Assembly: GCA_035527515.1 (NCBI GenBank)
Contig: DATLAJ010000053.1
Coordinates: 1 to 64,000, forward strand
DNA from: a bacterium
GTDB taxonomy: Bacteria > B130-G9
DNA length: 64,000 nucleotides
Reading direction: 5' to 3'
Part shown: piece after piece, positions 8,006 to 46,914 of the stretch
Layout: every line of letters starts with the position of its first letter
How positions within the stretch are numbered: position 1 is the first letter of the stretch
Translations under genes and position numbers: made by a program
The notes under the pieces: generated by a model
Database searches by the model: none
Told to the model about the DNA's origin: nothing
Seen by the model: the letters and a program-made list of their open reading frames with translations, nothing else

Positions 8006-9046
8006 CTATGGGGTCATATCCCCATACTTCTGGCTAACCTCCAGAAACACCTGTAAGGACTGCGCAAATGCTTCCAGGACACTCGGATCGAAATGCGCTG
8101 GCATTGTCCTTCCATCACCCTCAAGAATGATTCTCGCACTTTGTTCATGGGTAAGAGGCCCTTTGTAAGGCCTCTTGGACCTCAGCGCGTCATAGATGTC
8201 AGCCGCTGCGAATATCCTTGCAGCGACAGGGATATCTTCTCCCGCCAGACCGTTATAGCCGGTGCCATCATATTTCTCATGATGGAAATAGGCTATGTCT
8301 CGCGCCATCACCAGTTCTCCCCTGGTTATCTCCAGGTCGCCCACGACTGCATTTAGGGTATCGCCTCCCTTCTTGGCGTGCGTTCTCATGATCTCGAACT
8401 CATCGTTGGTTAGCCCACCGGGCTTCAGAAGCACAGAATCAGGGATGCCCACCTTCCCGATGTCGTGCAATACACTCACAGCATAAATGTTCTCAACGAA
8501 ATCGGCGTCATGTCCCAAACACTCCCCAATCACTCTCGAGTACTCGCGGGTCCTTTCGAGGTGCGCCCCGGTCTCAGGGTCCCTTGATTCAGCCAATTTG
8601 GCCATAGCGAAAATCGTAGCATCCTTTGTCGCTGCGTATTCCTTGGCAAGAATAGCTATCGTCTTGTGATGTAACTGGTCCAGAAGGCAAATTGGCTTCA
8701 GAATATCGTTACTGTATCTCCCCCAAAGAACGCCGGCATACGCATCCTCGAAGTCGTGAAAGGCATCGAAGAATACGTTCGGGCGAACATCCGCAGCAGC
8801 CGTCTTCTTCCCAATTACGGAATTGGCGTTGAAATACGCCTCAAGATCGCCCCTAGAAATATGCTCTATGAAGGCATCCACCAGCATCTCAATGCCTTTC
8901 TTCAGAGGCGCGAATTTCGGAGAATCTCTGTCAGTCTGCTCCCGTACCCAGTTCTCTACGATCTCGCCTCGTCTCTCACGAAACAAGGAGCCAATCTCCT
9001 TCAGAAGCGCTATCCTGTCTTCTGCAAAAAGGTCCTTCCTACCCAT
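8006..9046 (-). CDS. HD-GYP domain protein, putative c-di-GMP phosphodiesterase
   Basis: A 346-residue cytoplasmic protein. An N-terminal helical region (1-140) of unknown sensor type precedes an HD-GYP domain (about 145-340). Metal-site motifs are present: ESRDPETGAHLERT, LHDIGKVGIPD (His194-Asp195), H223 (THAKKGG), HHEKYDGTGY (255-264) and AADIYDALRSKRPYK. The hallmark GYP reads GYN (263-265); all metal ligands I can align are kept. HD-GYP proteins linearise cyclic di-GMP, and GYP contacts GGDEF partners, so partner choice may differ. A GAGGTGAG ribosome site supports the ATG at 9046. Monocistronic. Confidence 0.88.
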   Translation of the reverse strand: MGRKDLFAEDRIALLKEIGSLFRERRGEIVENWVREQTDRDSPKFAPLKKGIEMLVDAFIEHISRGDLEAYFNANSVIGKKTAAADVRPNVFFDAFHDFEDAYAGVLWGRYSNDILKPICLLDQLHHKTIAILAKEYAATKDATIFAMAKLAESRDPETGAHLERTREYSRVIGECLGHDADFVENIYAVSVLHDIGKVGIPDSVLLKPGGLTNDEFEIMRTHAKKGGDTLNAVVGDLEITRGELVMARDIAYFHHEKYDGTGYNGLAGEDIPVAARIFAAADIYDALRSKRPYKGPLTHEQSARIILEGDGRTMPAHFDPSVLEAFAQSLQVFLEVSQKYGDMTP

Positions 9047-29974: not shown

Positions 29975-30553
29975 ATGCCGTTAACAGACGATGAGCTGAT
30001 CGATCAAGTTCGCGCGGGTAACCTGAAGAGCTTCGAGGAGCTCATCGACCGTTACCGTAACCAGGTCTTCAATTTCGTGTATAGGATTCTTGGTAGTCGG
30101 GATGAGGCGGAGGATATACTACAGGACACGTTTATGAAGGTTTATGAGCACCTACCTCGATATAAGAAGCAGTCCAGGTTCTCAAGTTACTTGTTCACAA
30201 TAGCGCACAACCTGTCGATGAACAAGATCAACTACCAGAAACGTTCTCAGATGAAATTGGAGACGCTGTCGCAGTCGGGCGAGGACAGTAGTCAAGCGGA
30301 TAGGACGCCAGACGCGTTACTGAGGGAGAATGAAACCGCAGTTGTTGTACACAAGGCGATTGAGAAGTTGCCACCCAAGTATCGGGCAGCTTTGGTGCTG
30401 AGCGAGTTTGAGGGTTTTTCTTACAAACAGATTGGCGACGTCCTCAACTGCTCAGTGGGCACGGTGAAGTCTCGTATTTTCAGGGCAAGGGACCTTCTGA
30501 GAGGATATTTGAAGGGTTATGAAGAGCAGGGCATGCAGGAAAAACTTAACTAG
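29975..30553 (+). CDS. RNA polymerase ECF-family sigma factor
   Basis: A 192-residue sigma factor with both conserved domains. Region 2 is at residues 15-85 (YRNQVFNFVYRILGSRDEAEDILQDTF and SYLFTIAHN). Region 4 is at 125-180 (LPPKYRAALVLSEFEGFSYKQIGDVLNCSVGTVKSRIFRAR). It directs polymerase to extracytoplasmic-stress type promoters. The ATG at 29975 gives a normal N-terminus. It overlaps the anti-sigma gene by 35 nt in another frame, the standard coupled arrangement. The long plus-strand array that follows includes the T2SS genes, which makes envelope control of secretion an attractive inference. Confidence 0.95.
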   Translation: MPLTDDELIDQVRAGNLKSFEELIDRYRNQVFNFVYRILGSRDEAEDILQDTFMKVYEHLPRYKKQSRFSSYLFTIAHNLSMNKINYQKRSQMKLETLSQSGEDSSQADRTPDALLRENETAVVVHKAIEKLPPKYRAALVLSEFEGFSYKQIGDVLNCSVGTVKSRIFRARDLLRGYLKGYEEQGMQEKLN

Positions 30554-31406
30554 AGTTTCGGCGTTCATAGACAACGAGCTATCGCCAGTCGAGCGCAGAA
30601 GGCTCGAGGCGCATCTTGCGGTGTGCCCCGGCTGCTCTCGCTACTTGGAGGAGCTGAGGGCCGGTTCGGCGCTGTTGAAATCGCTTCCTGCCGTCGAGCC
30701 GAGGCAAGAGGCTATCTCGGAGCTTAAGGCTAGGCTTCGCATGACCGCCCACATCGGCGAGGAGAACGTCTGCGAGATGATGCCCGTGAGGCTTTCCGCC
30801 TACATAGATAACGAGCTGCCGGGGCCTGAGCGCCAGCTCGTCGAGCAACATTTGGCCGTCTGCCCTGATTGTTCACGCTACCTGGAAGAGCTGAGGGCGA
30901 TCTCCAGACATCTCAATCTGCTGCCGGAGATTGAGCCAAGCCGGGCCGCTGTTGAATCGCTCAAGGCGAAGGTCCGCTCGGCGCACATGCCCGTCCGAAG
31001 GAGTTCAGCGCCGGTCTTCGCTTTCCCGCGGTTCGCTCACGCCCGTTTGGGGCTCGCGGCAGCGGCGGTGGTCTTGTTGGCAGTTGCTCTGTATGTGTTC
31101 TCGCCGTTTGAGCACGGAGGTAATATGGCCGGGACTTCGGTCAAGCCCACATCCTTTGGAGGCGCCGCTAGGGACATGGCGGACGCTGATCTCAAGACTG
31201 GGAAGGACCGCCTCCTTGCAGAGCTGGCGTTGAACGAAGGCGGCAAGGCTCAGAGTGCAACGGGCTCCCGTGACAGTCTCGAGGTGTTTGACCCCGCGCA
31301 GAGTGACACCCGCGGACGCATTGTGCACTCCATCGTCTTTGGTGAGCGGCGGGCAACACGCGCCCCTGTGGCGTCTCACGTATTGTTTGTGAGTTACGGG
31401 GACTGA
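30519..31406 (+). CDS. Transmembrane anti-sigma factor with duplicated zinc-finger domain
   Basis: A 295-residue protein. Two successive ZAS/zf-HC2 domains are seen at about 8-45 and 85-125. They are near copies: both contain SAYIDNEL or SAFIDNEL and HLAVCP(G/D)CSRYLEEL. One membrane helix follows (about 172-194, LGLAAAAVVLLAVALYVF), then a periplasmic tail of 100 residues. Anti-sigma proteins of this kind hold the ECF sigma factor at the membrane until a signal breaks contact. The start ATG 30519 lies inside the sigma gene. One ZAS domain is usual; two tandem copies are uncommon. Confidence 0.88.
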   Translation: MKSRACRKNLTRVSAFIDNELSPVERRRLEAHLAVCPGCSRYLEELRAGSALLKSLPAVEPRQEAISELKARLRMTAHIGEENVCEMMPVRLSAYIDNELPGPERQLVEQHLAVCPDCSRYLEELRAISRHLNLLPEIEPSRAAVESLKAKVRSAHMPVRRSSAPVFAFPRFAHARLGLAAAAVVLLAVALYVFSPFEHGGNMAGTSVKPTSFGGAARDMADADLKTGKDRLLAELALNEGGKAQSATGSRDSLEVFDPAQSDTRGRIVHSIVFGERRATRAPVASHVLFVSYGD

Positions 31407-31455
31407 TACTGATGGGTCAGATTGACGGCAAACTCGAATGCATTGGAGGTCTGGC

Positions 31456-32739
31456 GTGACAACTTTACTGGTGCGTGTCGCATTTGTGCTTGCGTATTTG
31501 TCGTTTGCGGTCTCCCTCTATGCTCAGGGTAGTTATGATCTTGGCAACCGGCTTTTCGCGGAGGGCCGGACCGCAGAAGCGGCCGAGACGTATGAGAAGT
31601 CGCTGCATGAGGGCAAGAGCGAGGTCGCGGCTCACTGCCGGTTCATGCTTGCCAGCTGTTTTGAGCAGATGAGTGATTTTGAGAAGGCCGAGAAGAACTA
31701 TCGGCTCGTTTGGCAGCTTTTCCCGAGGAGCCCCTGGGCGGACGATGCCCTATTGCGGGTAGCAGCTCATCTCAGCAAGTCACGGGACATCAACGATGTG
31801 AAGGCGGCCAAATCCTACCTCGTGAAGATTCAGGGGCTTTATCCCCAGTCATCCTTGTTGGCCGACTCGCTCTGCCTTCTAGGTGAGGACAATATCTTGC
31901 TGCACGAGTTCGACGAGGCCCAGAGGAATCTGACCGAGGTCCTTGACAAGTATTCGGACAGCGGCCTTGCGACTCGGGCGCATTTCGCACTCGGGAGGCT
32001 CTATTCTGACGATGAGAATGAGCTTCGGGACCTTGACCGGGCGCTCGACGAGTTCAGACTCGTGGTCGAGGAAAGCCCGGATAGCCCATGCGCTCCGTGG
32101 GCTTATTTCTCGATTGGTAATGTCCTACGTTCGCAGAAGAAATGGGAGCACGCCAGGCCCTATTTCCAGGCTGTTATTGAGCAATATGACCGGACGTTGT
32201 GCGCGGCCGCGGCGAGGCCGATGCTCGTTCTTTCACAGGTCGAACGAGACCAGTTCCTGCGGGGACGGGACTCTTTTGAGCAGTTGCTGGCGATAGTCAA
32301 TCAAGACCAACGGCCCGTTATGCTGAAAAAGGTGGTTGTCCTGCCTCAACCAAGACAAGTTACGAAGCTTGAGATCGTTTCGGATGAGGCCTACTCTGAC
32401 GAGGCCCGTGCGATCTACAAAGGAGATGTCAAGGTATCGGCCGGCAGGATGCGGATTTTTGCCGACTATGTTGTCTGTGAGCTGCGTAGCCAGGTGGTGC
32501 GCGCCTCTGGCAAGAGCACGAGGTTGCAGTTCGGCAAGGAATTCGTGCTGGATTGCAAGCAGTTGACATTTGACGTCAAGAAACAGCGGGGGGTAGCTTC
32601 GGGCGACGTGAGGTTCGTAGAGGGTGGGTCTGGGGTGTTGGCCCTGGGTTCCGGCTCTGGGCCAAAAGTCAAGGTAGTCAAGAGCCTTGTCTTCTTGATT
32701 AAGGACGGCCAGGCGCTCTCACTTTCGGAGAAGGAATGA
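31456..32739 (+). CDS. Periplasmic TPR protein with LptA/OstA-like C-terminal domain
   Basis: A 427-residue exported protein. The GTG at 31456 is chosen because GGAGGT lies 5 nt upstream and a signal peptide follows directly (VAFVLAYLSFAVSLYAQ). Residues 25-290 are tetratricopeptide repeats (GNRLFAEGRTAEAAETYEKS, ALGRLYSD, YFSIGNVLRSQKKWEHARPYF). Residues 305-415 resemble the jelly-roll OstA/LptA lipopolysaccharide-transport domain (AIYKGDVKVSAGRMRIFADYV ... ASGDVRFVEG). It overlaps gspE by 4 nt (ATGA), so it is made together with the secretion machine. A scaffold or assembly role is inference. Confidence 0.75.
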   Translation: MTTLLVRVAFVLAYLSFAVSLYAQGSYDLGNRLFAEGRTAEAAETYEKSLHEGKSEVAAHCRFMLASCFEQMSDFEKAEKNYRLVWQLFPRSPWADDALLRVAAHLSKSRDINDVKAAKSYLVKIQGLYPQSSLLADSLCLLGEDNILLHEFDEAQRNLTEVLDKYSDSGLATRAHFALGRLYSDDENELRDLDRALDEFRLVVEESPDSPCAPWAYFSIGNVLRSQKKWEHARPYFQAVIEQYDRTLCAAAARPMLVLSQVERDQFLRGRDSFEQLLAIVNQDQRPVMLKKVVVLPQPRQVTKLEIVSDEAYSDEARAIYKGDVKVSAGRMRIFADYVVCELRSQVVRASGKSTRLQFGKEFVLDCKQLTFDVKKQRGVASGDVRFVEGGSGVLALGSGSGPKVKVVKSLVFLIKDGQALSLSEKE

Positions 32740-34454
32740 AGTTCTCCTTCGAGACGCCGTCTATGCTAAATCGCCTGCTTGTTCAGACCGGCAGGGTCTC
32801 GGAGGAAGACCTCGCGGAGGCTCTTGTTCAAGGGAGCGGATCGAATGACGGCGCGGTTGAGGCGCTGTTGGCTTCGCAGAAGCTAACGGAGGATGGCCTC
32901 GCGGAGGTCCTTGCCGGATACTCAGGTTGTCGCCATCTCAAGTATGATGAGTTCCCGGACGAGTATGTAGAACTGCCATCGCTTCCCCCCAAGTTCCTAA
33001 AGGAGCATTTGATACTACCGCTTCGGTTCGAGGACAGCAAACTCGTCCTGGCAACGGCCGACCCGCTCGATAAATACACGCAGGACAACATTAGGTTGAG
33101 CGTTAGCAAGGATTTGAAGATACTGGTCTCATCCCAGCGAGACATCATGCGCGCGCTTGAGGACCGTTTCGGCGACGCGACTATGGGCGAGATCATTGAG
33201 GACCTCGATGAGGAGGACCTCGAGCTTATCGCTTCCGAGGAGGACGAGGACATCAGCCACCTTCGGGACAGAGCCTTTGAGGCGCCAGTCATCAGGCTGG
33301 TCAATCTGCTGATCTCGCGTGCTGTTGACTCGGGTGCTAGCGACATTCACATCGAGCCTTTTGAGGGTCAGCTGAAGATTCGGTACAGGGCGGATGGTGT
33401 TCTTCACGACGTTGAATCTCCGCCTCGGACATTGGAGTCTGCAATTGTTTCGCGGATCAAGATCATGGCGGACCTGAACATAGCGGAGCGGAGGCTTCCT
33501 CAGGACGGCAGAATTGGTCTGAAGGTGGGTGGTAAGAAGATAGACCTTCGTGTCTCCACGGTTCCAACGCTTCACGGAGAGAGCATCGTCATGAGGGTGT
33601 TGGACCGGGAGAGCATGGGATATAATCTCTTGAGTCTGGGTTTTGACAAGAGGACGCTTGACGAGTTCGAGTTTCTGATCCGCAGGCCCCACGGCATCGT
33701 TCTCGTTACTGGGCCGACCGGAAGTGGCAAGACGACGACTCTCTACGCTGCTCTGGATAAGATCAACTCCCCCGACAAGAAGATCATCACGGTCGAGGAC
33801 CCTGTGGAATACGAGCTCGTGGGCGTCAATCAGATCGAGGTCAAGCCGAAGATCGGCCTGACATTCGCCAATGGGCTTCGGTCGATCGTTCGTCAGGACC
33901 CCGATATTATTCTCATCGGCGAGATTCGAGACATTGAGACGGCGGAGATTGCGATACAGTCCGCCCTTACTGGCCACCTCGTTTTCAGCACTGTGCACAC
34001 GAATGACGCTCCGAGCACTATCACGAGGCTGCTGGATATGGGCGTAGAGAACTACCTTTTGTCCTCAACGGTGGAGGGAATACTTGCCCAGAGGCTCGTG
34101 AGGCGACTGTGTCCGCAATGCAGAGAGGCTTATCCGCCGTCGAAGCTGGAGCTTTCTCGGATTGGGATTCACGACTTCAAGAACATACCCAAGACGATTT
34201 ACAGGGCGGTTGGCTGCGATGAGTGCAATCGCACGGGCTATAAGGGGAGAGTCGGCATCTACGAGCTGTTAGTAATGACGGATGAAATGTGCTCGTTGGT
34301 CTTGGAGAGCGCCGCCGCGCAGAAGCTTAAACAGGCAGCTTTGCGGCACGGGACCCGGACGCTGCGGGAGGATGGCTGGCAGAAGGTTGTTGACGGGATA
34401 ACCAGTATCAGCGAGGTCCTGAGGGTTACCCAGGAAGAGCTGGTTGAGGTCTAG
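32736..34454 (+). CDS. gspE: Type II secretion ATPase GspE
   Basis: A 572-residue cytoplasmic ATPase that powers pseudopilus assembly. An N-terminal MshEN-type domain (residues 8-150, RLLVQTGRVSEEDLAEAL) is followed by the N2 domain and the ATPase core. The core shows Walker A GPTGSGKTTTLYAAL, the Asp box ITVEDPVEYE, Walker B IILIGEIRDIET and the His box FSTVHTNDA. A tetracysteine zinc site (CPQC and CDEC) lies near residues 460-495. The start overlaps the upstream stop. Length and motifs are normal for GspE/PilB; T2SS membership rests on the adjacent gsp genes. Confidence 0.95.
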   Translation: MKFSFETPSMLNRLLVQTGRVSEEDLAEALVQGSGSNDGAVEALLASQKLTEDGLAEVLAGYSGCRHLKYDEFPDEYVELPSLPPKFLKEHLILPLRFEDSKLVLATADPLDKYTQDNIRLSVSKDLKILVSSQRDIMRALEDRFGDATMGEIIEDLDEEDLELIASEEDEDISHLRDRAFEAPVIRLVNLLISRAVDSGASDIHIEPFEGQLKIRYRADGVLHDVESPPRTLESAIVSRIKIMADLNIAERRLPQDGRIGLKVGGKKIDLRVSTVPTLHGESIVMRVLDRESMGYNLLSLGFDKRTLDEFEFLIRRPHGIVLVTGPTGSGKTTTLYAALDKINSPDKKIITVEDPVEYELVGVNQIEVKPKIGLTFANGLRSIVRQDPDIILIGEIRDIETAEIAIQSALTGHLVFSTVHTNDAPSTITRLLDMGVENYLLSSTVEGILAQRLVRRLCPQCREAYPPSKLELSRIGIHDFKNIPKTIYRAVGCDECNRTGYKGRVGIYELLVMTDEMCSLVLESAAAQKLKQAALRHGTRTLREDGWQKVVDGITSISEVLRVTQEELVEV

Positions 34455-35799: not shown

Positions 35800-36219
35800 A
35801 TGCTACTAGCTAGATTGCGGGCGCTGTCTATGGCGATAAACCGGCGAGATGCAAGGGGGTTCACGCTGATAGAGCTTTTGGTCGTTCTTGTGATATTAGG
35901 TCTTCTGGGCGCGATTGTGGTCCCGGCCTTCGTGGGCAAGACCGAGAAAGCTAAAATCCAGTCCACCAAGACGCAGATAGAGATGTTTGGCACGGCCTTG
36001 GACATCTACAACGCTGAAGTTGGGCGATATCCCAGCTCGCTGGAGGAGCTGATCTCGTCGAACGCTACCAATTGGGACGGGCCGTATTTGAAGAAAAATA
36101 AGATCCCAAAGGACCCCTGGGGCAACGACTACTCCTATGAGCTGGTTGACAACGGCCGCTCGTACAGGCTGAACTCCCAGGGCTGCGAGGCGTCTGGCCC
36201 GATCAATAGCTGGGATTAG
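35800..36219 (+). CDS. gspG: Major pseudopilin GspG
   Basis: A 139-residue pilin-like protein. The prepilin cleavage site is RG-FTLIELLVVLVILGLL with Glu at +5, after a basic leader of about 20 residues. The C-terminal part has the GspG pattern YPSSLEEL, NWDGPYLKK, IPKDPWGNDYSYE, with the Pro/Trp loop that binds calcium in other GspG proteins. It polymerises as the pseudopilus that pushes substrates to the secretin. A GGAGAAGGAGAAG ribosome site precedes the ATG. It overlaps gspH at TAGTG. Confidence 0.96.
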   Translation: MLLARLRALSMAINRRDARGFTLIELLVVLVILGLLGAIVVPAFVGKTEKAKIQSTKTQIEMFGTALDIYNAEVGRYPSSLEELISSNATNWDGPYLKKNKIPKDPWGNDYSYELVDNGRSYRLNSQGCEASGPINSWD

Positions 36220-37037
36220 TGTTGGGCGAAGTGCTAGGTCCCGAATCCAGAGCTCTTGATTCTGGATACAGGTCTGGGATTCGCTGTTCTCACACCCCGG
36301 CCGGTAGTCCGCAGTTTGAGCCTTGCAGTCCGAATCTCACGGTTCGGCTGCGGGGGTTCACGCTGATCGAGCTTCTGATCGTCCTGCTGATCGCGGGGCT
36401 TATGGCAGCGTTTGTCGTCCCCGCGTTCGTGGGCAGCATTAGGGGCATGCGACTAAAAGGAGAGGTGAAGCACCTCGCGGCCGCACTCAGGTTCGCCCGA
36501 AGCCAGGCTGTGTGCAGCAAGGGGCTGGCAATCGTTAAACTGGACCTCAACAGCGGGACCTACGACCTGATCATCAAGAAAAAGGAGCAGCGCCGCGGCG
36601 GGTCCGGTCGGGCGAGCGGCTCCGACCTCTTCGGAGCTGAGGCGGGTACTGCCGGCCTCGGTGGCGGCTCCGCAGCTCTCGGTGGCGGCTCCGCAGCTCT
36701 TGGCGGCGGGTCGCTTTCGACATCAAGTGGTCTCGGTGGGGACTCGGCCTTCGGCGCCTCAGAAGGCGCGCCCGAATCGAGAGGCAAGTGTGGGGAGAGC
36801 CCCTTGGCTCAATTGGTCAAGAAAACAAGAAAGCTCAAGAAAGGCGTCAAGATGGCGAGCTTCACCTACGGTGATGAGAAATACGAGGACGGTGTCTGCA
36901 ACGTTTTCTTCTTTCCCCGAGGCACATCGACCGGCGGCCTGATCGAGCTGGAGGGCGAATCAGGTCGGTCATTTGTTATAGAGATAGAGCCGGTAACGGG
37001 CTCGGTGAAGATCAAAACACCAGAGGATTATTTGTGA
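36219..37037 (+). CDS. gspH: Minor pseudopilin GspH-like, with Gly/Ser-rich insertion
   Basis: A 272-residue protein. A prepilin motif RGFTLIELLIVLLIAGLMAA is present but about 45 residues from the first start, an unusually long leader; no closer ATG exists in frame. The GTG at 36219 overlaps the gspG stop. The type IV pilin/GspH-like globular part (residues 70-120, LRFARSQAVCSKGLAIVKLD) is interrupted by a Gly/Ser/Ala-rich stretch near 140-175 that includes a 21-bp tandem repeat. The C-terminus (RSFVIEIEPVTGSVKI) is GspH-like. It is probably a tip pseudopilin. Confidence 0.82.
   Translation: MLGEVLGPESRALDSGYRSGIRCSHTPAGSPQFEPCSPNLTVRLRGFTLIELLIVLLIAGLMAAFVVPAFVGSIRGMRLKGEVKHLAAALRFARSQAVCSKGLAIVKLDLNSGTYDLIIKKKEQRRGGSGRASGSDLFGAEAGTAGLGGGSAALGGGSAALGGGSLSTSSGLGGDSAFGASEGAPESRGKCGESPLAQLVKKTRKLKKGVKMASFTYGDEKYEDGVCNVFFFPRGTSTGGLIELEGESGRSFVIEIEPVTGSVKIKTPEDYL
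36657..36719 (+). repeat. 21-bp tandem repeat inside gspH
   Basis: Two identical 21-bp units (36657-36677 and 36678-36698), each opening CTCGGTGGCGGCTCC, and a diverged third unit to about 36719. They encode repeated LGGGSAA in a flexible linker. Confidence 0.75.
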
Positions 37038-39483: not shown

Positions 39484-41631
39484 ATGGTATCACTTCAGTC
39501 CAGCCTGAGCATACTCTTCAAAAGGGACAAGGTTATCCTGACCCACCTCGGCAAGGGCTTGACGAGATACACTTTGATCGACTACGAGGTGATCGACCTT
39601 GCTCGCGTTGAGGACCATTCCGAGGACCACATCGACATGCTCGTGCAGAACGGCATCTCGCACTTCCTCGAGGAGCATCGCATAAAGCCTGACAGTGTGT
39701 TGATCGGTATCCCGCGGGAGAGCGCTTTCTTCACATTTGCCGAGCTGCCCAGAGTTCAAGGTGTCAGCCTCGGGGAGATTCTTTCCTACGAGATAGAACG
39801 GCACGTGCCGCTGCCGGCGGATTCGGTCTGTTTCGATGCCCAGGTGGTTGAGCGAAACGAATCTCAAAACAACATGCTCAAAGTGGCCATTATCGCTGCG
39901 CGACGGGACCTCATTTTGCGATACGCCGGTATCGTAGAACAGATCGGCCTTGCGCCGTCCGCGATCACGGTCTCCACCCTCGGGCTTGTGGATTTCTTTG
40001 CCCGGTTCGGCGAACTGACGGACGATGCCACCTGCGCTCTCGTTGATTGCGATGATGGCAGCGCTGATGTGGTCATCTTGAGGGGTAAGGAGCTCATGCA
40101 CTGCCGGTCAATCGATCTTGAGCACGGGGGACTGAGTTCAAGTTGGCAGAGGCTAACGCCGAAGAGGGCACTTCTCGGCGAGAAACTCATGGAGCGGGGG
40201 CTCATAACGGAGGAGCAGCTTCAGCTGGCTCTTGCTGAACAGCAGAAGGCGGGCGATGCACTGCTGGGTCAGGTATTATTTCATTCTGGCTTTATTTCTG
40301 AGGAGGACCTCGCAAAAGCGCTCTCGGGCCAGGCGCCAGGCGCTCAGGCAGCCCAGGGCTCCGGTGGGGACGACGGAGAGACGAACTTGGCGGTACAGGG
40401 TGGGGATTCGGTTGGCGTTCAGAAACAGGGAGAGATCAGAAAAGCTCAGGCCATCCTCGACGAGCTATCCTCATACGCAGATGAGAACGGCGGTAACGTT
40501 TACATCGACGAGCTATATCTATCTGGTGAGTATCGCACCGCTCTTAATCTCCAGGGGACGCTTGTGGAGCTGGGTTTTGCGGGCCGTGTCAGGCTGCTTC
40601 AGCCGCATCAGAAGATACGCTCGCTCGTGCCGCCGGAGAGGGCGAGTTCTCTTTGCTCTGCCATAGGCTTGGGCATGCGCGACTTCGAGGAAAAGGTCGG
40701 GGGGGCTAACCTTCTGCCGGCGGAGCGCCGACCGAGGCGCAAGCTCTATGGGAAGCGATTCATGATCGGTCTTTCAGTTTCGCTGTGCATTCTGTTAGTG
40801 GCGATTCTGGCCAGTAGTATCGCCAGGGAAAAGATGGAGGTCAGTTTCCTTGAGTCGAAGGTTCAATCGCTCCGCAACGAGGTGAAGCTGATCTCCGCGA
40901 CTCGGCATCAAGTGGCGGCCTGGGGGAACCTATTGAAGGAGCTGAAGTCGCTATCTGAGGAGACTCTCAATCCCCTCTTGGTGCTCAAGGAGCTCGACAA
41001 GCGTCTGCCTAGTGCTGGGCCGGAGAAGGTATGGTTGAGCAATTTCCGGCTCAAGGATCAGAGGCTGTCGATCAACGGTCGTTCGGGCAAGCCGGAGGAG
41101 ATACTCGCCAAACTGGAGGCGTCTCCGATTTTCAAGAACCCTCGTTTTGAGGGACGGATAACATCAAGTAAGGACAGCGAGCAATTCAGTGTTGTGGTCG
41201 AGATCGATATTAAGAACCAGTGGCAGTTGCTCAACGAACAGGAGGGGCTTGAGAGAGAGCAGGAGCTGATAGGTCCTCTGCCTGCCCCTGAGGATATGCT
41301 GATAGGTCCAGGTGAGAACGATGAGGAGAGTTACTACGAGGGGCCGGACGAGTCGCTGCAGCTGCCGTTTCGTAACCCAGAGATGGCTACTGGGATGGAT
41401 AGAACGTTTCGATCTTCTGAGTCTGAGTTGCCGTTCAGGAATCCGTTGCTGCGTGGGCAGGCAGGTCGGATGTTTGACAATCGACTTCCGGCGACAGGCT
41501 CGACGAATTCCGTCACTGAAGGCACATCGCATGACGAGGAGGATGCCGAGGGAAACGGCGAGGCAGATGACGAATCGGATGATTCGGAGGGGGATTCGGA
41601 GGGGGATTCGGAGGGGGACGAGGACGAATGA
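39484..41631 (+). CDS. gspL: GspL-like protein (PilM-PilN fusion) with internal MshEN-type domain
   Basis: A 715-residue protein, much longer than usual GspL (about 400). Residues 1-225 and 319-400 form the PilM/GspL actin-like fold (LIGIPRESAFFTFAELP, ERHVPLPADSV, VYIDELYLSGEY). Between them at 228-283 lies a segment typical of the MshEN domain of GspE-type ATPases (LGEKLMERGLITEEQLQLAL, LFHSGFISEEDLAKAL), followed by a Gly-rich linker. A membrane helix (427-447) and a PilN-like periplasmic part (450-600) follow. The end is an acidic tail of DSEGDSEGDSEGDEDE. It should recruit GspE at the inner membrane. The start follows AGAGGAG. Confidence 0.9.
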   Translation: MVSLQSSLSILFKRDKVILTHLGKGLTRYTLIDYEVIDLARVEDHSEDHIDMLVQNGISHFLEEHRIKPDSVLIGIPRESAFFTFAELPRVQGVSLGEILSYEIERHVPLPADSVCFDAQVVERNESQNNMLKVAIIAARRDLILRYAGIVEQIGLAPSAITVSTLGLVDFFARFGELTDDATCALVDCDDGSADVVILRGKELMHCRSIDLEHGGLSSSWQRLTPKRALLGEKLMERGLITEEQLQLALAEQQKAGDALLGQVLFHSGFISEEDLAKALSGQAPGAQAAQGSGGDDGETNLAVQGGDSVGVQKQGEIRKAQAILDELSSYADENGGNVYIDELYLSGEYRTALNLQGTLVELGFAGRVRLLQPHQKIRSLVPPERASSLCSAIGLGMRDFEEKVGGANLLPAERRPRRKLYGKRFMIGLSVSLCILLVAILASSIAREKMEVSFLESKVQSLRNEVKLISATRHQVAAWGNLLKELKSLSEETLNPLLVLKELDKRLPSAGPEKVWLSNFRLKDQRLSINGRSGKPEEILAKLEASPIFKNPRFEGRITSSKDSEQFSVVVEIDIKNQWQLLNEQEGLEREQELIGPLPAPEDMLIGPGENDEESYYEGPDESLQLPFRNPEMATGMDRTFRSSESELPFRNPLLRGQAGRMFDNRLPATGSTNSVTEGTSHDEEDAEGNGEADDESDDSEGDSEGDSEGDEDE
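41581..41616 (+). repeat. 12-bp tandem repeat at the end of gspL
   Basis: Three perfect units of GATTCGGAGGGG encode repeated DSEG in the acidic C-terminal tail. Confidence 0.8.
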
Positions 41632-42185
41632 AGCTGACCGCACGGGACCGGAAGGTTCTCATAATAGGCTCTTTGGTGATATCTGTATTCGTTCTCATCA
41701 GATTCGCTATCGTGCCGCTATACCGCTACAGCCGGAAGACGTCGGACGAGATTGAGAGCGTTCGGTTTCAGTATGAGAAGAGCGCACAGTTGATCTCGCA
41801 GAGGGCTGCGCTCGATTACGAGCTGAACGAGCTGAAGAAAATAGGGGCTAACTTCGAGGCGCTGCTTATTCACGCCAGAAATCCGAACGTTGCGGGCGCG
41901 AAGTTGCAGCAGACGCTGGACGGTTTTCTCCAGCAATCGAAGCTTGAGACACGGAGTAAGAAGATAATGAAGGCCGAGGAACGGGCCGGTTTCATCTCAG
42001 TGCCTGTGGAGCTTAGCGCGGCCGGCTCGCTATCTCAGTTGAGGGATTTTCTGACGAAGGTGATGAACGACAAGATGTTGCTTCAGGTAACGAAGCTGAC
42101 GCTTAGACCTGAGAACCAGCGTGACCCCAAGAAGATATTCATTGATATAGAGGTTGTGGGATATGTCCTCAATGAATTGCCGTAG
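41628..42185 (+). CDS. gspM: GspM/PilO-like inner-membrane protein
   Basis: A 185-residue protein. One membrane helix at about 10-30 (VLIIGSLVISVFVLIRFAIVPLY) is followed by a coiled coil (SDEIESVRFQYEKSAQLI) and a ferredoxin-like PilO/GspM domain (SLSQLRDFLTKVMNDKMLLQVTKLTLR). It pairs with the PilN-like part of GspL in the inner-membrane platform. The start overlaps gspL by 4 nt (ATGA). Confidence 0.87.
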   Translation: MKLTARDRKVLIIGSLVISVFVLIRFAIVPLYRYSRKTSDEIESVRFQYEKSAQLISQRAALDYELNELKKIGANFEALLIHARNPNVAGAKLQQTLDGFLQQSKLETRSKKIMKAEERAGFISVPVELSAAGSLSQLRDFLTKVMNDKMLLQVTKLTLRPENQRDPKKIFIDIEVVGYVLNELP

Positions 42186-45583: not shown

Positions 45584-46180
45584 ATGCGTAAGAGTCTATT
45601 GATTATCGGTCTGTTGTTCCTTGCCGGAACGGTTGTTCTGACAGGCTGCTCGAGGCGCGGTGGCACTGGCGACGATGATTCGCAGTCAACCATCTGGGGG
45701 CTACAGATAACGAGGATCGAGTCGTTGACTGGCCTGCCCTACGTAGAGTCCAGCGTGAACGCGAACGATCTCGGCACTGATGACAACGCTGTCGTCTATG
45801 TGCTCAACAAGTATTCTGATTACTATCTCGATTCGGAGGGCAACATCGACCCCTCATATAACGTCCTTGTCACCAAGTATCTCGTCGAGATAGCACTGCC
45901 CAACTATGCCCCGTTCACTTTCGAGAGGAACATATACTCTCAAATAGCTGCCTCAACCGCGGACACGGAGACGTCGCTTACGGTCGCGGCTGTGCCGGCA
46001 GAGCTCAAATCTCAGATAGCGACGATTGTTGATGCGGAGGGTGGGGCGATCGAGGGCACTCTAACCATCCGCCTCGAGGGCAAGTTTGGCAACGGCGAGG
46101 ATGCCTACACGACCGGCAAGACGCGACTTAGGATCACCTCGCAAGGCACCGCACCTCTGGGCGTCTCTATCGTGAGGTAA
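45584..46180 (+). CDS. Lipoprotein next to the secretin gene
   Basis: A 198-residue lipoprotein with a clear signal (KSLLIIGLLFLAGTVVLTGC). The mature part is beta-rich and acidic (GLQITRIESLTG, NAVVYVLNKYSDYYLD, VTKYLVEIALPNYAPFTFERN, GTLTIRLEGKF). I do not recognise a named family. It lies 23 nt after gspD, so a role as a secretin pilotin or cell-surface factor is possible, but most known pilotins are smaller and helical. GGAGG precedes the ATG. Confidence 0.75.
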   Translation: MRKSLLIIGLLFLAGTVVLTGCSRRGGTGDDDSQSTIWGLQITRIESLTGLPYVESSVNANDLGTDDNAVVYVLNKYSDYYLDSEGNIDPSYNVLVTKYLVEIALPNYAPFTFERNIYSQIAASTADTETSLTVAAVPAELKSQIATIVDAEGGAIEGTLTIRLEGKFGNGEDAYTTGKTRLRITSQGTAPLGVSIVR

Positions 46181-46620
46181 TCCCTTGGATTGCGCTGTTC
46201 CACGCGGTAGTTGATCCAGAGCGCCTCCGCCCGAGGCGCTTTCGAGGAGTGGCATTTCTTGGTGGGTGCGTCGATTCTCCGGAAAGAGGAATACAGCTGG
46301 TCCGTAAGAGGGCAACGGTATCCCGACAGCGCGACCTTGCCTTTGACCTGGATCAACACTTCAGCGAGCCGCTTGTGCTCGGCATCTGTCATTTCGTAAC
46401 TGTAAGCCTTTAGCCTCTCTTTCTGGTCTCTCAGGACGCGGAAGAAATTCACGACCTCTCCATGTATGTCGTTGTATGTTTCAATAGGCGAAGGTTCCCG
46501 GTTAAGAAGAACTGCGGCCGATCCCCCAAAAGGTTCGCAATAGTGGTGACACTTGGGCAGTAGAGGCAAAAGCCATTCGAGATGATTGTATTTGCCGCCA
46601 TACCAGCCAAAGGCGATCAT
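46105..46620 (-). pseudogene. D12-class (Dam-type) adenine methylase with internal deletion
   Basis: A 171-codon frame. Its first 70 residues match the start of D12-class adenine methylases (FGWYGGKYNHLEWLLPLLP and CEPFGGSAAVLLNRE). Residues 71-138 match their end (YEMTDAEHKRLAEVL, KGKVALSGYRCPL, CHSSKAPRAEALWINY). The roughly 115 residues between these parts, which carry the catalytic DPPY motif, are missing at a junction near 46410. The frame is kept across the join. Its tail (past 46180) overlaps the lipoprotein gene. It cannot methylate DNA in this form. Confidence 0.75.
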
Positions 46621-46914
46621 CCGACGGGCTCGTCTATTCCTATTCGTGCCCGTGACTGGTGCGGTTTCGGTCTCAGGAAGAAGCTTCAATGCTGTCTTCC
46701 GGGCATCCTCTGCACCGCGAAGAGGACCGTGGAGACTGCCGTTCAAATGTATAGCGGAAGGTTTTCGCACCATTCTCACAACTCATATGCTTCTGAGCGA
46801 CATCCGGTCATGGATGCGCCGAGCTCGTCAAGAGTCCATGTTAGTGTGGCGCCCATCCAAGTCAAGAGCCTTTCGCGATTAGGAACCAATGAGCCACAAC
46901 CTCGTGCTTGAACC

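Follow-up and report, generated by a model that had tools for sequence, protein, structure and literature searches.

The question raised by this locus is what a domain of the cyclic-di-GMP-binding type is doing in the middle of GspL, a membrane scaffold component of the type II secretion system (T2SS) that holds the motor ATPase GspE. The window, namely the whole stretch of 64,000 nucleotides analysed, derives from Candidatus Coatesbacteria, a little-studied bacterial group, as do two of the three named relatives, which are Candidatus Coatesbacteria metagenome-assembled genomes. It contains a T2SS operon in the order gspE-F-G-H-I-J-K-L-M-C-D, in which L is the insert-bearing gene (39484..41631, + strand, 715 aa), located between the GspK and GspM genes. 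NCBIfam cut-offs were passed by GspD, GspE (32736..34454, + strand; TIGR02533 at 694 bits, together with PF05157 at 53.5 bits), GspG, and GspM (41628..42185, + strand; NF040576 at 75 bits, cut-off 60). Weaker, sub-cut-off NCBIfam or Pfam matches were obtained for GspF (just below the cut-off), GspK, and GspC, and the H, I, and J products were recognized as pseudopilins by their N-methylation motif and gene position. The GspH-like pseudopilin (36219-37037, + strand) carries a Gly-rich repeat insertion (ALGGGSAALGGGS). Around the operon, a TPR protein whose C-terminal domain is LptA/LptD_N-like (31438-32739, + strand) lies immediately upstream of gspE and overlaps it; a sigma-factor-like gene and, after it, one whose product has two tandem zf-HC2 zinc fingers (29975-31406, + strand) are located just upstream of the operon, and a partial D12-class (Dam-like) adenine methyltransferase (46105-46779) follows past the operon on the opposite strand (-).

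The identity of the 715-aa protein had to be established from its architecture and place, since no model named GspL or T2SSL matched it in Pfam and NCBIfam at E values up to 1; the only family models that did were PilM, PilN, and Amuc_1101. The protein consists of a PilM-like cytoplasmic domain, a transmembrane helix, a PilN-like domain, and an acidic tail, with Pfam matches to PilM_2 at residues 34-216 and to PilN at residues 507-572 (41002..41199, + strand). The PilM-like cytoplasmic fold and the PilN-like domain are thus joined in a single chain, and this chain, positioned between gspK and gspM, is GspL. The actin/PilM-like fold begins with residues 1-212 (39484..40119, + strand), which matched PilM (3jc8, 5eoy, 2ych) and cyto-EpsL (1yf5) by Foldseek. 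Residues 321-412 (40444..40719, + strand), the rest of actin subdomain 2A, are 77% identical to those of a relative of another genus (G003), and helix and strand elements were modelled at residues 310-371. The transmembrane helix (residues 426-447; 40759..40824, + strand) was assigned by eye from the hydrophobic stretch FMIGLSVSLCILLVAILASSIA.

Between the two parts of this fold, an MshEN_N (ND0) domain of the c-di-GMP-binding type occupies residues 230-283 (40171..40332, + strand). The initial annotation had proposed an MshEN-type domain inserted within the PilM-like fold of GspL, with a profile search as the check, and that search found the relationship: the NCBIfam model NF053729 (cyclic di-GMP-binding, MshE-related; curated cut-off 38 bits) matched residues 231-283 of the protein at E 1.5e-14 and 53.5 bits, within a chain that also matches PilM_2. 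In a scan of the whole source genome, the insert scored 59.5 bits and was among four matches over the cut-off. The Pfam MshEN model PF05157 matched nowhere in the GspL protein. In GspE, this model matches the stretch C-terminal to the 53-residue motif, so that it describes the neighboring MshEN_C (ND1) subdomain; only MshEN_N is therefore inserted in GspL, and a search with Pfam alone would miss it. After the insert, MshEN_C is absent, with no PF05157 match and a low-confidence linker in its place.

Structural modelling led to the same assignment. The isolated segment was modelled as a four-helix bundle (pLDDT 80, about 90 in the core), and its best 12 Foldseek matches in the PDB were all GSPII/MshEN domains, 11 of them c-di-GMP-bound chains of PilF GSPII-B or MshE at 1.0-2.4 A; the structures matched include 8pdk, 8pfa, 8pe0, and 5htl. 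Over 52-53 residues, the PilF GSPII-B crystal structures superpose on the model at 1.0-1.5 A and are 45-47% identical to it in sequence. With so small a domain, the E values were modest (best 0.016), although the Foldseek probability was 1.00. When the entire cytoplasmic part was modelled, confidence was low (pLDDT 58), but the same four helices appeared, and the actin-like remainder matches PilM and cyto-EpsL/GspL. These data confirm the presence of an MshEN_N-type domain in the middle of the GspL of Candidatus Coatesbacteria.

The domain is suspended between two unconserved linkers, at residues 213-229 (40120..40170, + strand; pLDDT <50) and residues 284-320 (40333..40443, + strand; pLDDT <50 at residues 280-313). 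The PilM match ends near a strand closing with CRSIDL (residue 212), residue 213 is aligned to residue 222 of 2ych, and a helix at 310-334 resumes the fold. In PilM, subdomain 2B presumably stands at this position, judging from the 2ych match and from what is generally established about actin folds. In GspL-like proteins of other phyla, nothing more than a short loop or a variable linker is present at this site. Long insertions of about 80-380 aa, acidic or proline-rich and disordered-looking, were observed at the same site in four PilM/GspL proteins of other phyla (L009 in G021, L017 in G032, L129 in G387, and L131 in G386), which indicates that the site accepts insertions. Three further long-spanning PilM matches from other phyla (G045, G019, and G037) proved to be ordinary PilM-type proteins without the domain.

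The ligand motifs of the insert are well preserved. The consensus used comprises two 24-residue motifs of the form (R/K/L)LG...G...LxxxLxxQ, extended at position 1. Motif I (LLGEKLMERGLITEEQLQLALAEQ, residues 230-253; 40171..40242, + strand) and motif II (LLGQVLFHSGFISEEDLAKALSGQ, residues 260-283; 40261..40332, + strand) each agree with it at 11 of 11 positions, giving 22 of 22 in the source genome (G000) and 21 of 22 in G003, a relative of another genus, in which one core position of motif I is a Lys. Both motifs of both complete inserts keep the ligand-contact residues Gly3, Leu17, Leu21, and Gln24. Two departures were found. Between the motifs, the spacer QKAGDA (40243..40260, + strand) has 6 residues in G000, as it does in G003, where the consensus has 5; a spacer of 5 was present in 26 of 30 sampled motif pairs, 6 and 7 also occur in other proteins, and the 6-residue length is shared with one unrelated PilB-type protein. 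In addition, Leu occupies position 1 of both motifs where Arg is expected. Tighter binding was reported for PilF GSPII-B with Lys and Leu at these positions (6 nM), the consensus was extended to (R/K/L), and the K167L variant, with Leu in both motifs, binds c-di-GMP at 2 nM (PMC11731258). The missing MshEN_C does not preclude binding, since the isolated N-subdomains of PilF (54 nM; PMC11731258) and MshE (0.35 uM; PMC5013675) both bind c-di-GMP. From its sequence, the insert is a probable c-di-GMP-binding domain.

Sequence comparison points to the pilus motor PilB as the probable origin of the insert. When 36 MshEN_N domains were placed in a tree, rough because of its few columns, the GspL inserts and Coatesbacteria PilB formed one clade (96/97) far from GspE, within which the two GspL copies made up no separate clade. 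Of 30 distinct motif pairs, only those of Coatesbacteria PilB and the GspL inserts have Leu at position 1 in each motif, and the similarity between GspL and PilB starts at the second codon of PilB (ALLGEKL). Based on this evidence, the donor was probably the PilB of the Coatesbacteria lineage, and GspE as the source was rejected on the basis of the tree. The last Gln of motif II is replaced by Glu or Arg in Coatesbacteria PilB (G000:C108:30351-30500, locus L036, and its relatives), whereas GspL keeps both Gln; at the equivalent of this final Gln, the PilF substitution Q218E reduced affinity 77-fold.

As GspE in the same operon was said to have its own version of the domain, it had been suggested that the two proteins share a signal or pair like with like. 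The N-domain of GspE is real, but its ligand site is degenerate. It scored 16.8-20.4 bits with NF053729 in the source genome and reached the cut-off in none of the four genomes, and in the GspE proteins whose residues were checked (G000, G002, and G003) the Gly at position 3 is lost in both motifs and nearly all Gln at position 24 are lost, much like the loss reported for XpsE (PMC5013675). A signal common to GspE and GspL is thus not supported by the residues. Pairing or origin like with like fares no better: the insert clusters with PilB, and in solved T2SS complexes GspL contacts GspE through ND1 (MshEN_C), the very part missing from the insert (PMC8389850). The latter point also weakens the idea that the insert, an ND0, is a pseudo-ligand occupying the GspE-docking site of GspL itself. 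Compensation, by which GspE would have lost its motif only where GspL gained the domain, was rejected, because GspE is degenerate also in the insert-free G002.

Comparison among four genomes, namely the source genome, one of the same genus (G001), and two of further genera in one family (G003 and G002), showed that the insert is shared with relatives and constrained. The domain is complete in G003, where it also scores above the NF053729 cut-off, and in G001 its first 14 residues precede the contig end; its absence from all relatives, which would have spoken against the proposal, was therefore not what we observed. In the GspL of G002 the domain is absent, and only a linker is present. The insert may have been gained in the ancestor of G000, G001, and G003, or else lost in G002, as far as one family with four genomes can tell. 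Between G000 and G003, in a comparison with saturated dS, the insert is 71% identical (dN 0.18) and the actin part 77% identical (dN 0.16-0.17), whereas the flanking linkers are only 16-19% identical, with dN 1.1 before and 1.2 after the insert. This difference indicates a domain under selection on unconstrained tethers and makes a passenger unlikely.

The four genomes also contain the means to supply the signal: GGDEF, PilZ, and HD-GYP-type proteins are present in all of them, with 4-7 GGDEF matches each, and the GGDEF/GGEEF motif was intact in 10 of 12 loci inspected. Within the window, a 346-aa frame with an HD-GYP-type (HD_5) domain (8081-8605, - strand) is a likely c-di-GMP phosphodiesterase. 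Elsewhere in the source genome (G000:C63:11735-12622; loci L002, L004, L035, and L038), a 367-aa protein has two complete MshEN domains (NF053729 and PF05157, each twice) and no ATPase match, with relatives in G001 and G002.

Such a GspL appears to be rare. In 386 genomes of many phyla, well over a hundred of which had PilM or GspL relatives among the matches listed, the domain was found in these relatives only in Coatesbacteria, among matches listed to E of about 1e-9, and it was absent from all nine genomes examined from the phylum that contains the nearest GspL relatives. The paper defining MshEN lists no GspL or PilM among its fusions (PMC5013675), and no fusion of MshEN with GspL or PilM was found in the titles and abstracts listed by text searches. 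The earlier statement that no GspL with such an insert had been described held in the literature surveyed and in about 390 other genomes. These surveys support rarity but not uniqueness.

Concerning the function of the insert, GspL and PilM homologues dock motor ATPases through ND1 of the motor N-domain and stimulate them (PMC6325625, PMC8389850). For a ligand domain on flexible tethers beside the GspE socket, the best explanation is a c-di-GMP input to the T2SS stator, acting on GspE docking or stimulation; we consider this reading moderately probable, with the binding, the effect, and its sign all being deduced. The PilB-type module would sit in a surface loop replacing actin subdomain 2B, and c-di-GMP bound by it would alter its stiffness, position, or contacts beside the surface of GspL that holds GspE. 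The grip of the stator on GspE, or its stimulation of GspE, would thereby become c-di-GMP-dependent, and the second messenger would act on the T2SS via the stator, with the N-domain of GspE retaining a docking role only. Against the stator input stand the 6-residue spacer, the Lys in motif I of G003, and the missing MshEN_C, as well as G002, which presumably secretes using an insert-free GspL. A more specific proposal, possible but doubtful, is that c-di-GMP control of the T2SS was shifted from motor to stator: the ND0 site of GspE was lost and a PilB-derived ND0 in GspL would supply it, possibly touching GspE ND1 in trans. If true, one subdomain of a former single-chain sensor would now reside on a partner protein.

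The insert could instead have given up c-di-GMP and become a module for protein-protein contacts, packing on GspE ND1 in trans in place of the degenerate ND0 or joining neighboring GspL copies. We regard this as unlikely, although ND0 and ND1 adjoin within one MshEN domain (PMC5013675), GspE docks via ND1 (PMC8389850), the motif is lost from GspE ND0, and the insert spacer is one residue over the consensus; a contact module would not be expected to keep its ligand-contact residues in both complete inserts despite 29% change across the domain, nor to retain both Gln where the donor-like PilB has lost one to Glu or Arg. Flexible linkers would permit contacts away from the socket, through which the domain might respond to c-di-GMP without acting on GspE, as an anchor localizing or clustering GspL, for example at a pole or near a diguanylate cyclase; no partner is known for such an anchor and the operon suggests none, and it seems improbable to us. 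It is still harder to believe in a harmless, functionless insertion in a permissive loop. The 2B site does tolerate large unrelated insertions elsewhere (G021, G032, G386, and G387) and G002 manages without the insert, but the domain evolves about as slowly as the fold (71%, dN 0.18) between saturated linkers (16-19%, dN 1.1-1.2). Finally, the named relatives are metagenome-assembled genomes, in which assembly or binning might have fused two genes; the same fusion is complete in two genera, it starts in the same manner in a third genome that is cut by the contig end, and one open frame shows purifying selection throughout, so that an artefact can be practically discounted.

If the stator input is correct, a ligand domain within the stator would add a novel point of control, since in the c-di-GMP-controlled type IV pilus and T2SS machines compared the messenger targets the motor ATPase or separate adaptors. 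Coatesbacteria with and without the insert would provide a natural experiment on the role of the stator, and the isolated domain, at 54 residues, is small enough for direct binding tests. The insert also suggests that two related machines, through a pilus motor and a secretion stator, exchanged a regulatory subdomain, and it identifies the subdomain-2B loop in PilM and GspL as an insert-accepting site.

Compared with known systems, the insert shares with the MshEN/GSPII domains of MshE, PilB, and PilF (PMC5013675, PMC11731258) the two 24-residue motifs, the four-helix MshEN_N, and the complete set of ligand residues, and with the high-affinity PilF variants the Leu at position 1 (PMC11731258). 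It differs in being MshEN_N only, internal to GspL, with a 6-residue spacer and with neither an ATPase nor the MshEN_C (ND1) that in PilF supplies an extra ligand contact. The host protein has the actin-like cytoplasmic domain, transmembrane helix, and PilN-like periplasmic domain of GspL/EpsL and PilM-PilN (1yf5, 4pht, 2ych) and the location of known GspL between gspK and gspM, whereas a ligand-binding-type domain at subdomain 2B and matches to PilM/PilN models only set the Coatesbacteria protein apart. MshEN is known to be fused to REC, HD-GYP, CheA, CheX, cyclase, and Ser/Thr kinase proteins (PMC5013675); in these and in NfrB-like glycosyltransferases, as presumably here, an MshEN-type module is placed on a non-ATPase effector as a c-di-GMP input, but none of those named is a stator component of a T2SS or type IV pilus. 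In the PilZ-FimX-PilB system of Xanthomonas citri (PMC8389850), a non-motor protein brings c-di-GMP information beside the PilB/PilM interface, as the insert-bearing GspL would here; there, however, separate proteins serve a pilus motor, whereas in Coatesbacteria the domain lies within the T2SS stator itself.
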